Shown here: one piece after another, positions 1,884 through 39,957 of the stretch
Layout of the letters: the number at the start of each line of letters is the position of its first letter
How positions within the stretch are numbered: position 1 is the first letter of the stretch
IMG/VR virus record: IMGVR_UViG_3300033146_005641
Coordinates: 1-64,000 of that record
Strand: one strand, 5' to 3'
Length of the DNA stretch: 64,000 nucleotides
From: a virus
Notes under the pieces: generated by a model
The model's input: the letters and a program-made list of their open reading frames with translations, nothing else
What the model was told of the DNA's origin: nothing
Database searches by the model: none
Program-made: the position numbers and the translations under genes

Positions 1884-3191
1884 ATGAATTCTTTACAAGA
1901 AAAATTTCAAGAAGCCGTAGTAAATTTGATCAGTAATGAAAAATACGTAGATCTTAGCTTTTACGGATTTATTATAGCTAAACTAAATGTTAAATATGCC
2001 AAAAATATGCCTACGGCGGGTGTAAGTTTTAATAAAGATTCATTAAATTATAATTTGATGATTGGACATGCTTTCGATAAATGGAATCTTGAAGAAAGAA
2101 TTGCGGTGCTGATTCACGAATGTAGACATATTTTAGGTCTTCATACAATTCGTAAAGGCGAAAGAGATCATCAATTATTTAATGTAGCTACAGATATTGC
2201 TATTAATCAGTTGATTAGAAACATTCCCGAGGGTGGAGTTTTTCCAGAGACTTTTGATTTTCCCAAAAACGAAAGCGCAGAAACTTATTATGAACTTCTC
2301 AAAAAAGAGAAAGAAAAACAAGAGCAATCTAAAAAAGAGCACGAAGAAAATGAAAAGGATAGTGAGAATGACGAAAATGAAACAGACTCTCAAGAAGATT
2401 CTAATTGTTCTTCTAGCGGATGGAAACCTGATAAAAATTCAAAAGGTGAAACTAAACCTGATTTAACTAGCCTTGATAAAGAGCCTCAAACTTTAGATGT
2501 TCATGATTGGAGCGATGAGGGAAATTCAGATGAGGGATTAGAAGAGCTTCAAAAATCTATAGCCGAAAATATGGTTAGAGAGGCTATAGATCAAACAAGA
2601 GGAAATTTACCACAGGATATTGAAAAAATTCTTGAATTTCTTAAAAAGAAAGCTAAAATTTCCTGGAAAAAAGAGCTTCGTAAAATTATTAGTTCAAGAA
2701 ACGGAGCAAGAATTGAGACTATTAAACGAAAAAATAGAAGATTTCCACACAGAGCAGATCTTAGAGGTAGAAAAGTACAAAAAGATAAACCTGTTGTTTT
2801 TGTAGGTGTAGATACTTCAGGCTCTATGGACGATAGCGATGTACTCAATGGGTTAGTAGAAATTAATGAAGTCATTAAAAATGTAGGTGAGCTTAAAATT
2901 ATCCAAATTGATACTGAGATTAAAGGTATTCAGAGTTTCGATAAAAATAATTTTAAAAGATTTAAAAGAAAAGGTTATGGTGGTACTTATATGGGTGCAT
3001 GTCCCGAATATATTGAAAAAAATAGATTGAAATGTGATGTATTGATAATGATTAGCGATATGTGGATCGAAAATATTCCTTCCGATGATAATTGGAAAAG
3101 TTTTAAAAAATCTGTCCTATGGCTTAGTACTTCAGGCGAAACACCAGAAATTCTAAGACATCATAAAATCTTTAATATCAGAAACGCCTAA
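1884..3191 (+). CDS. DUF2201-type metallopeptidase-like / VWA domain protein
   Basis: The N-terminal half (residues ~1-130) carries VLIHECRHILGLH, a zincin-like HExxH motif typical of DUF2201. A highly charged Glu/Lys/Asp linker spans ~140-215. The C-terminal half is a von Willebrand A domain with the MIDAS start DTSGSM at ~310 and conserved GGTYMG and ISDMW segments. Families of this kind usually pair with MoxR AAA+ ATPases, and one is encoded at 3682-4794. Inference: a chaperone-like pair that remodels or activates a target. It ends without the PQYFI tail. The Arg within the HECRH motif makes peptidase activity uncertain. Confidence 0.8.
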   Translation: MNSLQEKFQEAVVNLISNEKYVDLSFYGFIIAKLNVKYAKNMPTAGVSFNKDSLNYNLMIGHAFDKWNLEERIAVLIHECRHILGLHTIRKGERDHQLFNVATDIAINQLIRNIPEGGVFPETFDFPKNESAETYYELLKKEKEKQEQSKKEHEENEKDSENDENETDSQEDSNCSSSGWKPDKNSKGETKPDLTSLDKEPQTLDVHDWSDEGNSDEGLEELQKSIAENMVREAIDQTRGNLPQDIEKILEFLKKKAKISWKKELRKIISSRNGARIETIKRKNRRFPHRADLRGRKVQKDKPVVFVGVDTSGSMDDSDVLNGLVEINEVIKNVGELKIIQIDTEIKGIQSFDKNNFKRFKRKGYGGTYMGACPEYIEKNRLKCDVLIMISDMWIENIPSDDNWKSFKKSVLWLSTSGETPEILRHHKIFNIRNA

Positions 3192-20164: not shown

Positions 20165-21532
20165 TTATTCTAATTTTGTAATAGATAAATACTCATTATT
20201 TATCCATTTATACTTACCTTTTTTTCTAAATAATTTTCCATCTTTTCTTAATGCCTCCATCCATATATTTTTAGGTATACTATTATCATTTATAAGATAC
20301 TGCTCTAGATATCCTTTAAAAATTATTTTATTTTTCTTTTTGATTTTAACTTTTTGTGTTTTTATACCTACTAAATATTTATTATTTTTCATCTCGTCTT
20401 TAGATACTGTTACTTTAGTGTCTGTTCTTATATCTATTGCAAATACTTTATCGTTTGTATTAAAGTTTTCTCTATATAATTGTCCTTTTTTCCAACCACT
20501 ATTACTATTTAGAAATTCATTTCTTTCCTGTTCAGATCCAAAGTGTTTCTGAATAATACCATCAGTCACATGAAAACGTCTACCTATAATGATATTGGTT
20601 CCTTTTTGCCATCCTTTTTCTATATAAGAATTTACGTCTTCTATATCGATAAACCTATAAACCTCATCCTTAAAAACAGCTACTTTATTCTTTATATATA
20701 TATTACTTCTTCCAGGATAATATCCTTCAAATAGTGATATATCGTTTACCCTAACTTTTTTATCTTCTACACCATTAGTTATCCATATCATATTATTATT
20801 ACCAGAGAAACCGCAATACCAGTCAGTATTATTTTTTAAGAAAATCTCTGCTTCTTCAATGGTCATTAATTTATTATTTATTCCATTAGTAATTCTTTTT
20901 TTAATATGACCTAAATTATAGTTATCTATCTCTTCTTTTTCTACATATAGATTTCTTATTCCGTCGTTAACCGGTATTTTTTTACGTATTTTACCATAAA
21001 CCCAATTACTATTTTTAACTAGTTTTTCAGCATTTCTTATGCTCATAACCTTATTAACATTTCCATTATTAACCCATTTTTTATTTTTATTACCTTCAAT
21101 ATTTTCCGAGTTAAAATAATTTCTTAAATCACCTTCTAAATTATACATAACGGGCGATTTAAAATATTTTCCTAAAATGTTTTTATTATAATAAAGAGAA
21201 TCCTCGCTCAAAACATCTCTTTCTATCTGCTCTTTTACTTCTAAATATCCGCTCTCTCCTCGTGTTCGACATAAATAAAGTATTTCTCTCTTAAAATTAT
21301 GTTTACCATATTTTTTTATATCCTCTTGAAGATCTTTAGACGAGCCGTAGTAATCTTGCCAATCAGATTCTTTCTTTACTCCACCTTTTAACTTATTAAA
21401 AAATACCTTTTTACCTATATAATATATGGGTCTATTAGGTTCTTCTATATAATTTAACCTCGTAATTAAATATACAAAGCTTTCAAATTCCTCTATAATA
21501 TCACTAAATACTTGATTATTATATGTCCACAT
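20165..21532 (-). CDS. GIY-YIG-like homing endonuclease with repeated C-terminal modules
   Basis: 455 residues. The N-terminal region (~15-125) has VYLITRLNYI..PIYYIGKK, a GIY-YIG motif. Next come SDWQDYYGSSKDLQEDIKKY and FKREILYLC, the pattern of Seg-type phage endonucleases. From ~145 onward four or more short modules repeat with a core like W(V/I)(N/T)NG...K.M..A, probably DNA-contacting NUMOD-like units. It is the only minus-strand gene in this part and is inserted between small accessory genes, as expected of a mobile free-standing endonuclease. It has no PQYFI tail. Confidence 0.75.
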   Translation of the reverse strand: MWTYNNQVFSDIIEEFESFVYLITRLNYIEEPNRPIYYIGKKVFFNKLKGGVKKESDWQDYYGSSKDLQEDIKKYGKHNFKREILYLCRTRGESGYLEVKEQIERDVLSEDSLYYNKNILGKYFKSPVMYNLEGDLRNYFNSENIEGNKNKKWVNNGNVNKVMSIRNAEKLVKNSNWVYGKIRKKIPVNDGIRNLYVEKEEIDNYNLGHIKKRITNGINNKLMTIEEAEIFLKNNTDWYCGFSGNNNMIWITNGVEDKKVRVNDISLFEGYYPGRSNIYIKNKVAVFKDEVYRFIDIEDVNSYIEKGWQKGTNIIIGRRFHVTDGIIQKHFGSEQERNEFLNSNSGWKKGQLYRENFNTNDKVFAIDIRTDTKVTVSKDEMKNNKYLVGIKTQKVKIKKKNKIIFKGYLEQYLINDNSIPKNIWMEALRKDGKLFRKKGKYKWINNEYLSITKLE

Positions 21533-33882: not shown

Positions 33883-33967
33883 GGAAGTGGCACGTAAGGT
33901 ACGTAAGAGGTTTGCTAAACCTTGGCCGGTAAAACGGTAGTGAGTTCGATTCTCACCATTTCCACCA
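33883..33967 (+). tRNA. tRNA-Ser (GCU)
   Basis: Acceptor GGAAGTG/CATTTCC, anticodon stem GAGGT/ACCTT with loop TTGCTAA, long variable arm, T-stem GTGAG/CTCAC, encoded CCA. The 65 bases before it hold small inverted repeats, including GGCCAAG complementary to its own CTTGGCC. Confidence 0.88.
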
Positions 33968-36020: not shown

Positions 36021-36488
36021 ATGAAAAAAAGAGAAAGAAAAGTTCATACGATGGATGTAGAGGAAGTGAGGAAGTTTATATTAGATTATCCAACAGCTAA
36101 AATTTATCTCGGAGCCGATTCTCAAAGAATCCGAAAGAAAAGAGTAAAATTTGTCGTTGTTGTTGTTGTTCACTATGAGGGTCATTGCGGAGCTAAAATA
36201 TTTTATGAAACATCTTATGATCACATTACAGATGCTAAACTTTCAAGACCCTTCAATAGAATGATGAAGGAAGTTCAGCTTTTAACAGAATTATATACTC
36301 AATTAGAAGATATTTTATGGAATAGAGATTTTGAAATTCATATCGATGTTAATCCTGAAAAAGGTACCGGTTCTAATGTTGCTTATCAGGCAGCTAAAGG
36401 TGTTATTTGGGGTATGATAGGTGTAGAGCCTGTATGTAAACCTGAGGCATGGTGTGCCTCAACTGTGGCGGATAAATATTCGAAATAA
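36021..36488 (+). CDS. DUF458 / YkuK-type RNase H-like protein
   Basis: 155 residues. The YLGADSQRIRKKRVKFVVVVVVH segment (~30-52), then the IHIDVNPEKGTGSN acidic stretch (~108-121) and AWCASTVADKYSK end follow the DUF458 (YkuK) family, which has an RNase H-like fold. Asp33, Asp110 and Asp150 are candidate metal ligands. Lying next to the tRNA cluster it might process structured RNA; that is inference. Confidence 0.75.
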   Translation: MKKRERKVHTMDVEEVRKFILDYPTAKIYLGADSQRIRKKRVKFVVVVVVHYEGHCGAKIFYETSYDHITDAKLSRPFNRMMKEVQLLTELYTQLEDILWNRDFEIHIDVNPEKGTGSNVAYQAAKGVIWGMIGVEPVCKPEAWCASTVADKYSK

Positions 36489-36938: not shown

Positions 36939-37628
36939 ATGAAGTTCAGAGACACTAAATATGGTGATTTAACGGGACAAACTTATGAAGGAGATATTGA
37001 TGTAAGCGAATTAAGTCTTACTTCTCTAGAGGGGCTCCGGAGACAGTTAATGGTAATTTTTATTGTACTCATAACAATCTAACTTCTCTAAAAGGATCTC
37101 CTAAGGTAGTTAATGGTAATTTTAGTTGCTCAGATAACAATTTAACTTCTCTAGAGGGGGCTCCAGAGACAGTTAATGGTAGTTTTAATTGTTTAAACAA
37201 TCAACTAACCTCTCTAGAGGGGGTTCCAGAGGTAGTTAACGGAAGCTTTTATTGTTCAAACAATCGATTAACATCTCTAGAAGGGGTTCCGAAGGTAATC
37301 GATGGTAGTTTTTATTGCTCTTACAACAATTTAACTTCTCTAGAGGGGGCTCCGGAGACAGTTAATGGTAATTTTTATTGTACTCCATAACAATCTAGCC
37401 TCTCTAGAGGGATCTCTGAGAGAAGCTAATGGTAATTTTAATTGTTCTTACAACGATCTAGCTTCTCTAGAGGAGGTTCCGGAGGTAGTTATTGGTAATT
37501 TTTATTGTACTCATAACAATCTAGCCTCTCTAGAGGGATTACCTTATTCTAAATATGTATACTCTGATTTTAGTGATAAAGAAGTTAATGATTATTTAAA
37601 ATCTAAATTTCCTCAATATTTTATATAA
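36939..37628 (+). pseudogene. LRR paralogue broken by two compensating frameshifts
   Basis: ATG 36939 gives the family N-terminus (MKFRDTKYGDLTGQTYEGDI). At about 37030 the repeat core reads GAGGGGCTCC where other copies have GAGGGGGCTCC, a lost G that shifts the frame. At about 37384 TACTCCATAAC has an extra C relative to TACTCATAAC and restores the frame. About nine repeats, cap and KSKFPQYFI are otherwise intact. Real decay, slippage or sequencing error. Confidence 0.65.
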
Positions 37629-37629
37629 C

Positions 37630-37652
37630 TTTAAGGTATATTACACTATAAT
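37630..37652 (+). promoter_or_regulatory. Early-type promoter
   Basis: TTTAAG-N11-TATAAT after the LRR pseudogene. The leader is cut short (AAAGAGAGG) before ATG 37671. The nearest stable product downstream is the tmRNA. Confidence 0.7.
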
Positions 37653-37670
37653 ATATTATATAAAGAGAGG

Positions 37671-37801
37671 ATGAAACCTTTCAATATTATATTTTGGAAT
37701 ATCGTTAGTAGTCTTTTTAGGTCAGATAATTGTTTCTATTTGACTTGGAGTAAAAGTTGTTAATGAGGGTATGAAATAACTATAAATATTAAGCGTTGGT
37801 T
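37671..37801 (+). pseudogene. Decayed small membrane protein gene
   Basis: ATG 37671 has RBS AGAGAGG but gives only 30 codons with no clear fold. A neighbouring frame reads GISLVVFLGQIIVSI, then TGA, then LGVKVVNEGMK and a stop, a typical single-helix membrane protein. A shift plus a nonsense change would explain it. Confidence 0.35.
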
Positions 37802-37841
37802 CGTCAGTGACGACGCTATATAAAAGAACTGCTGACGTTAT

Positions 37842-38129
37842 GGGGTTGATAGGTTTCGATTAGATTCTTATTAATTTTCAAAATCAAGCGGTTTAGAGTA
37901 ACCTAAAAGCTCACCAAAAAATAACTGTAAACAACACAGACTATACGCCAGCGGCGCAAGTAGCCTAATACTACAGGGTTATATAGTACCTAGTAACAGA
38001 AACTATATAAAGTGTCTACTTAAAAATTCAAAGCGTTATGATTCGTTAAAAATCTATCCTTAAAGCTTGTATAAATTTTAATTATAAACGGGATTTAAGA
38101 CTGGAGTTCGATTCTCCACAACTCCACCA
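37842..38129 (+). ncRNA. ssrA: Phage-encoded tmRNA
   Basis: 288 bases. 5' GGGGTTG pairs with 3' CAACTCC including a G3-U70 pair (alanine identity). AGGTTTCGAT, the tmRNA D-loop hallmark, follows. The 3' end has a T-arm GGAG-TTCGATT-CTCC and encoded ACCA. The resume frame at 37927 (GTA) reads VNNTDYTPAAQVA, stop TAA 37966-37968. The start of the tag matches the Helicobacter tag VNNTDYAP as I know it. The end, QVA, departs from the usual KAA/LAA degron. Confidence 0.9.
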
Positions 38130-38289
38130 ATTAAGAAAAAAAATATGAAAAAACAGATTTAAAAATCAACTCAGACGTACTCGCTTTAAGAAGATCTCTT
38201 ATGAATAGATTTTAGAATGTTTTTATCTATTATAACTGAAGATAATTTCTACGGTTAGAAATATATTTTTAAAAAATATGACTACTAAA

Positions 38290-39480: not shown

Positions 39481-39957
39481 GTGTCATATAAAGATGAGCT
39501 CCAAGAATTAGTTAAAAAAAGAATGATAGACGAAATTTCGGCAGCAACTTTTTATTTAGATGCTGCATCTCTTATCAGAGATCTTGAGTTAGCAGAAGAA
39601 ATACAAAAACACGCATTAGAAGAATTTGATCATTTTTCAAGATTGATAACGTTTGCTAGAGCTCACGGATTAGAGGTTAAATATGATTTTGATAGGAGTG
39701 TAATAAAAAATGTACCTCCTAGAGAAAAAGCACTAATATCTATTATCCAAAATCTAGAAAGAAAAGCCATTACCGATTATAGAGAAATGGTTTTACTATG
39801 TAGAAATAATGAAGATATAGAAGGTGAGAAGTTTTTTAAAGAAATAATGTTAGAAGAAATAGAGCATTTTGATGATGTAGCGCAAAAGACAGGCGAAACT
39901 AGAAAACTAGGAGAGTCTTTTAAGAAATTTAAAAAATTTAAAGATAGATTTAAGTAA
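39481..39957 (+). CDS. Ferritin-like four-helix protein
   Basis: 158 residues from a GTG start. Four helices carry the carboxylate/His pattern of ferritin-like diiron proteins: DEISAATFYLDAAS (Glu ~18), LEEFDHFSRLI (Glu ~47, His ~50), ERKAITDYREM (Glu ~95) and MLEEIEHFDDV (Glu ~128, His ~131). Resembles bacterioferritin/rubrerythrin-type domains. A role in iron storage, peroxide defence or scaffold use is possible. Co-transcribed with the capsid-like gene from a late promoter. Confidence 0.7.
   Translation: MSYKDELQELVKKRMIDEISAATFYLDAASLIRDLELAEEIQKHALEEFDHFSRLITFARAHGLEVKYDFDRSVIKNVPPREKALISIIQNLERKAITDYREMVLLCRNNEDIEGEKFFKEIMLEEIEHFDDVAQKTGETRKLGESFKKFKKFKDRFK

Follow-up and report, generated by a model that had tools for sequence, protein, structure and literature searches.

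The window, the 64,000-nt stretch analyzed here (positions 1 to 64,000 of IMG/VR record IMGVR_UViG_3300033146_005641, a virus contig of 183,351 bases), encodes a real, conventional tmRNA of phage origin. The 49 nt directly before it (37793–37841), which lie outside the coordinates first given for this locus, are predicted to form an H-type pseudoknot. We find copies of this leader in 11 virus records. The combined reading that we favor, and consider probable, is a conventional phage tmRNA adjoined on its 5′ side by a conserved H-type pseudoknot, which would act as an RNA of its own after 5′ maturation. The leader is a compact and testable 45-nt RNA: its pairing covaries strongly, its core is invariant, and in five of the 11 copies it has a fixed position at phage tRNA or tmRNA 5′ ends. 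Should it act as an RNA of its own or as a ribozyme, it would add a new player to the ways in which phages use their tRNA islands.

tmRNA gene and virus record

The phage tmRNA proposed in the preliminary description is borne out by ARAGORN and Rfam, which agree on its span. ARAGORN called a tmRNA at exactly 37842–38129 on the plus strand, with the tag VNNTDYTPAAQVA. The covariance model RF00023 matched the same positions over its whole length (1–374 of 374) and supported the expected tmRNA fold with 89.3 bits, above the gathering score of 47 (E 2.4e-33). In tmRNAs, the resume codon comes after a conserved A-containing stretch; here, AAAAAATAACT is followed by GTA at 37927, a short frame with a hydrophobic end, the last sense codon GCC and the stop codon TAA at 37966–37968. 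The acceptor stem consists of seven pairs (GC GC GT GC TA TA GC) with an ACCA end, and its third pair is the G-U pair G3-U70, which we take to be the identity pair of alanyl-tRNA synthetase. Among the pseudoknots flanking the tag frame, PK1-like pairs were read by eye, and the later ones align poorly to RF00023. At the likely pseudoknot upstream of the tag, the letters of the sister phage L010 differ yet still pair (by eye). The features are collected in Table 1.

Table 1. Features of the tmRNA locus and of the predicted leader in the window
Feature	Position	Strand	Remark
RNase H-like protein (PF04308)	36021..36488	+	between tRNA array and tmRNA
Leader stem P1, 5′ strand GCGTTG	37793..37798	+	
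Leader stem P2, 5′ strand CGTCAGTG	37802..37809	+	within the P1 loop
Leader stem P1, 3′ strand CGACGC	37811..37816	+	
Leader linker TATATAAAAGAAC	37817..37829	+	near-invariant, 13 nt
Leader stem P2, 3′ strand TGCTGACG	37830..37837	+	then 4 nt TTAT up to the tmRNA 5′ end
One-piece tmRNA gene (ssrA)	37842..38129	+	CCA encoded; ARAGORN, Rfam RF00023
Acceptor stem, 5′ strand GGGGTTG	37842..37848	+	G3 at 37844
Likely pseudoknot upstream of tag, GGTT/AACC + GAGT/GCTC	37890..37912	+	read by eye
Tag reading frame VNNTDYTPAAQVA, GTA...GCC TAA	37927..37968	+	preceded by AAAAAATAACT
T arm GGAGTTCGATTCTCC	38103..38117	+	Rfam RF00023
Acceptor stem, 3′ strand CAACTCC + A + CCA	38119..38129	+	U70 at 38123

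The virus record was assigned to the T4-like phages by its sheath, Gp23 capsid and DNA polymerase. Its nearest annotated relatives are distant, namely Campylobacter phages for the polymerase (28%) and Vibrio phages for the sheath (44%), and no close IMG/VR relatives of the window’s capsid and polymerase were found. From the resemblance of the tag and these distant phage relatives, the only two lines that bear on the host, we infer the phylum Campylobacterota. Besides the tmRNA, ARAGORN detected 23 tRNAs in the window. A further tRNA-Ser (GCT) at 33883–33967 emerged when the ARAGORN settings were relaxed and also matched RF00023 weakly; it is missing from the standard ARAGORN run and from RF00005 at its gathering score. 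The RNase H-like protein has 64% identity over 152 aa to a gene of L010, which there also lies between the tRNAs and the tmRNA. Elsewhere in the window, the gene for a Gp23-like major capsid protein is immediately followed by one for a ferritin-like protein (PF00210, E 3.8e-8; 39481–39957). The first 128 residues of the minus-strand ORF at 20165–21532 match a PHROG labelled NAD synthetase; the overlapping part matches homing endonucleases, so this label may be wrong.

With tag-based search patterns, a tmRNA was found only in L010 among six viral stretches, in none of the 8 genome stretches scanned among 29 matched, and in none of four other stretches. A search of the 183 kb record for SmpB gave no match (10 of 14 control genomes gave one), and host SmpB must therefore serve if the tmRNA works. 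The gene, its fold match, the G3-U70 pair and the tag frame make the ribosome rescue suggested in the preliminary description plausible. Charged with alanine and using host SmpB, the phage tmRNA would enter ribosomes stalled on non-stop mRNA, add a 13-residue tag of the Campylobacterota type and then free the ribosome.

The tag and its C-terminal end

The preliminary description had placed the tag near the Helicobacter type, and the best-scoring tag in the ARAGORN list is indeed VNNTDYAPAYAKVA of Helicobacter acinonychis. It had further read the end of the tag as altered, which could give the tagged products a different fate or protection. That the tag ends in QVA, and in neither KAA nor LAA, is correct; as a yardstick, KAA/LAA does not hold, since other endings also occur among the closest tags. 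About 600 distinct tags were parsed from the ARAGORN list (598; 596 with a stricter filter), and 20 of them end in -VA. The Campylobacterota tags, taken solely from this built-in list with genera picked by name, comprise 22 distinct sequences (30 entries), of which 11 end in -VA, nine in -AA and two otherwise; with Nitratifractor (-AA), missed by the genus filter, the -VA share becomes 11/23. The list gives ANNTDYRPAYAVA with its -VA end for Sulfurovum, also of the Campylobacterota, and ANNTNYRPALAVA for Sulfurimonas autotrophica, and one Helicobacter tag differs from that of H. pylori only by KVA for KAA. The sole -QVA tag listed is that of Bacillus phage G.

The tmRNA of the sister phage L010 carries the tag VNNTDYTPAALVA, with an -LVA end. 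Between the two phages, the codons for Asp and the final Ala show synonymous changes, as expected of a frame under selection, and the Q/L position reads CAA in the window and CTT in L010. In E. coli, AANDENYALVA is destabilizing: at 37 °C, LacI fused to it had an apparent half-life of about 13 min, compared with about 8 min for the LAA form, according to the part of the source available (PMC3511798).

Taken together, the ARAGORN tag list, phage G, L010 and the loss of -LVA-tagged protein in E. coli identify the tag as an ordinary Campylobacterota type, with no special fate indicated. By analogy with these cases, it is most likely an ordinary, probably degradative tag, and its -QVA end would most likely act as an ordinary C-terminal degron, in the manner of the Campylobacterota endings -AVA and -KVA. 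A tag of altered fate, whose -QVA end weakens ClpX/ClpA recognition so that phage-tagged products are spared or routed to another protease, appears highly unlikely. It would fit an end outside KAA and LAA and a difference between the sister phages precisely at Q/L; against it stand the half share of -VA ends among the 22 distinct Campylobacterota tags, the same -QVA end in phage G and the continued degradation of -LVA in the E. coli data available. As the main reading, the altered tag was rejected on ARAGORN’s tag list, and the right yardstick thereby removes a tempting but weak story of a tag that protects phage products.

Copies of the leader and their structure

In an alignment of the window with L010, an uninterrupted stretch of 21 identical bases stood out upstream of the tmRNA, within DNA that is otherwise diverged. 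A 19-base core of this leader was detected in the present record and in three others of the viral_contigs collection, and a search of these four records over their whole length gave one occurrence apiece; the record of L010 has a second core match, with 3 mismatches and without P1. Looser scans, two of which listed each contig once, brought the total to 11 copies in 11 virus records (the window, L010, L044, L045, L051, L054, L058, L069, L073, L090 and L139). These counts include two weak copies, L058 with 3 pairs in P2 and L069 with a long loop and 4 pairs. The matches in L052, L053, L055, L056 and L057, without P1 and without P2 in register, were dropped as chance before counting, as were 106 of the 117 matches of the loosest pattern.

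The copies follow the plan xCGTTG-loop(10–20)-CGACGx′, T(A/C)TA(T/C)AAAAGAA(C/T) and a tail that pairs with the loop through its first bases; written as RNA, xCGUUG-loop-CGACGx′ is followed by the near-invariant UAUAUAAAAGAAC linker and then by the strand pairing with the loop. The loop pairing always ends one base before the P1 3′ strand, and this base is A in nine copies and C in two.

The loop–tail pairing was absent from every search pattern. Across five P2 positions in the 11 copies, 53 of 55 cells (96%) pair in register, compared with 29–48% when the strands are slid by 1–3 positions, and each position shows four to five types of pair. When loops and tails of the first seven copies were shuffled, a single one of the 5040 assignments, the true one, reached the observed pairing. 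Among the 117 loosest-pattern matches, at least four pairs in the fixed register occur in 10 of the 11 with the linker consensus and in none of the 106 without it. This consensus was formulated once the copies were already known; the exact linker TATATAAAAGAA gives at least four fixed-register pairs in seven of eight matches. The outer P1 pair is Watson–Crick in all 11 matches with the consensus, versus 28 of the 106 without it, and covaries between G-C (seven copies) and C-G (four), while the inner five P1 pairs are invariant. Because an invariant P1 alone says nothing for or against pairing, the argument for the structure comes from P2 and from the outer pair of P1. This covariation among sequences is strong evidence that the leader is an RNA pseudoknot whose core is invariant.

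Rfam, searched with E values up to 10, returned only snoRNA noise for the leader, and in nine other leader loci only tRNA, tmRNA and permuted tmRNA exceeded their gathering scores. BLAST of two leader copies against 50,697 phage records and of one copy against 72,556 plasmids gave no credible match: the E values were 0.2–9 only, and nearly all matches fell within annotated genes (one phage record was unannotated). A relaxed leader pattern found no match in 395 and 398 sampled bacterial genomes of two phyla (793 in total), nor in the three of a further set. Nothing alike was found in the literature on the linker sequence or on pseudoknots by phage tRNAs, within a coverage that mostly excludes subscription papers. 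On sequence grounds, the leader is a credible new phage RNA element.

Genomic context and possible role of the leader

Five of the 11 leader copies directly adjoin an RNA gene on its 5′ side, and P1 lies 44–50 nt before the start of that gene. The abutting genes encode the tmRNA (window and L010), tRNA-Pro (L051), tRNA-Met (L054) and tRNA-Tyr (L090); in L090, the leader fills the gap between tRNA-Ile and tRNA-Tyr. In three more copies, the next downstream tRNA called by standard ARAGORN lies at 149 nt (L073), 203 nt (L139) and 442 nt (L069). Standard ARAGORN called no tRNA within 700 nt downstream of the leader in L044, L045 and L058, where relaxed settings gave only doubtful intron-bearing calls. 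P2 is separated from the mature end by 4 nt in three copies (window, L010 and L090) and by 5 nt in L051, a spacing that would suit RNase P cutting.

Several further observations concern these loci. The tRNA island of the L090 leader also contains another phage tmRNA (8745–9115, minus strand) with the long tag GNGYEYDYGFSGNRAAALLAA, and the L069 record, with its weak leader copy, has a circularly permuted tmRNA (RF04321, tag ANDNVYSLAA) at 1099–1513 on the minus strand. The L044 record (102 kb) has no RF00005 match and encodes, at 2472–3095 on the minus strand, a protein resembling a tRNA nucleotidyltransferase (CCA-adding type, by eye). Long stretches without clear genes surround the leader copies of L044 (1–1072), L045 (1942–3007) and L058 (2200–3000). 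Those of L044 and L045 gave no Rfam match up to E 1 except a CRISPR-repeat at E 0.61, and all three possibly contain further noncoding RNAs.

We hypothesize that the leader is most likely co-transcribed within the tRNA/tmRNA precursor. Maturation of the 5′ end, presumably by RNase P, would then separate it as a compact RNA whose 3′ end is defined, and the freed leader may act in its own right, as a protein-binding or regulatory RNA. The leader occurs once per record although arrays can hold tens of tRNAs, as in the L051 record with 34 tRNA matches and one leader copy, which argues for an RNA of its own over a processing signal that each tRNA needs. A broader proposal sees the leader as a member of a new class of small structured phage RNAs. 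Such RNAs would share the H-type pseudoknot and its invariant core, occur once per genome in the tRNA/tmRNA islands of different phages, be freed by 5′ maturation or by themselves, and act on a host or phage factor. We regard the chances of this proposal as evenly balanced.

The location of the leader, mostly in tRNA-rich DNA, and its TATA-rich linker would also suit a cis-acting element for the downstream RNA, such as an attenuator, a promoter-overlapping element or an exonuclease block. We consider such an element possible but rather unlikely: a promoter leaves the loop–tail covariation unexplained, and neither a sigma-70-like site on the plus strand of 37600–38280 nor a terminator at the leader was found. 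The promoter-only version was rejected on the loop–tail covariation.

Comparison with known systems

Like the Campylobacterota-type tmRNAs (RF00023), the tmRNA of the window matches the whole model, has G3-U70 and carries a tag closest to VNNTDYAPAYAKVA and near ANNTDYRPAYAVA; in contrast, it is encoded on a phage, and Q stands third from the end where the bacterial -VA relatives have K or A. Phage-encoded tmRNAs are known in Bacillus phage G and mycobacteriophages (PMC4131195, as far as the part available goes), and a survey, in its available part, counts tmRNA in 402 of 18,146 phage genomes (PMC9004378). The phage G tag likewise ends in QVA; these phages belong to another lineage, and the available portions of the sources mention no 5′ pseudoknot leader.

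The type III antitoxins ToxI and AntiQ are H-type pseudoknots similar in topology and size to the leader. This likeness, together with the single copy per contig, would fit an antitoxin RNA or a decoy for a defence that cleaves RNA. We nevertheless find this role quite improbable: the four records searched whole hold one full leader copy each, with no tandem repeat, and ToxN-family matches exceeded the cut-off in none of the 11 records, with one weak match in that of L090.

According to the available part of the source, phages use HDV-like theta ribozymes at tRNA 3′ ends (PMC10879173), which are likewise small structured RNAs abutting phage tRNAs. The leader could be their 5′ counterpart, a ribozyme that frees itself by self-cleavage from the 5′ end of the tRNA or tmRNA. 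Its compact pseudoknot, the near-invariant linker of 13 nt and, in five of 11 copies, its place directly at an RNA 5′ end would be compatible with this. There is, to our judgment, little chance that the leader is such a ribozyme, since it matches no Rfam ribozyme, is listed once per contig in the collection scans even where the record has as many tRNA matches as that of L051, and abuts no called RNA gene in six copies. Theta ribozymes, as described there, lie 3′ of the tRNA and have an HDV-like fold, whereas the leader is directly 5′ of the RNA gene in five copies and, in three more, precedes the nearest tRNA downstream. It forms a single H-type pseudoknot, in place of the HDV-like double pseudoknot, from P1 and P2 only, and its 13-nt linker leaves no room for a P4 stem. 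A leader released by 5′ maturation and acting as its own RNA remains the reading that we prefer.

Neither the window nor the nine loci matched the GOLLD and ROOL Rfam models above the gathering score, and the gene-poor stretches around the L044 and L045 copies gave no such match with E values up to 1. GOLLD and ROOL share with the leader a noncoding nature and a place near phage tRNA islands, and differ from it in size, measuring hundreds of nucleotides against about 45 nt for the leader (PMC12286853, available part).
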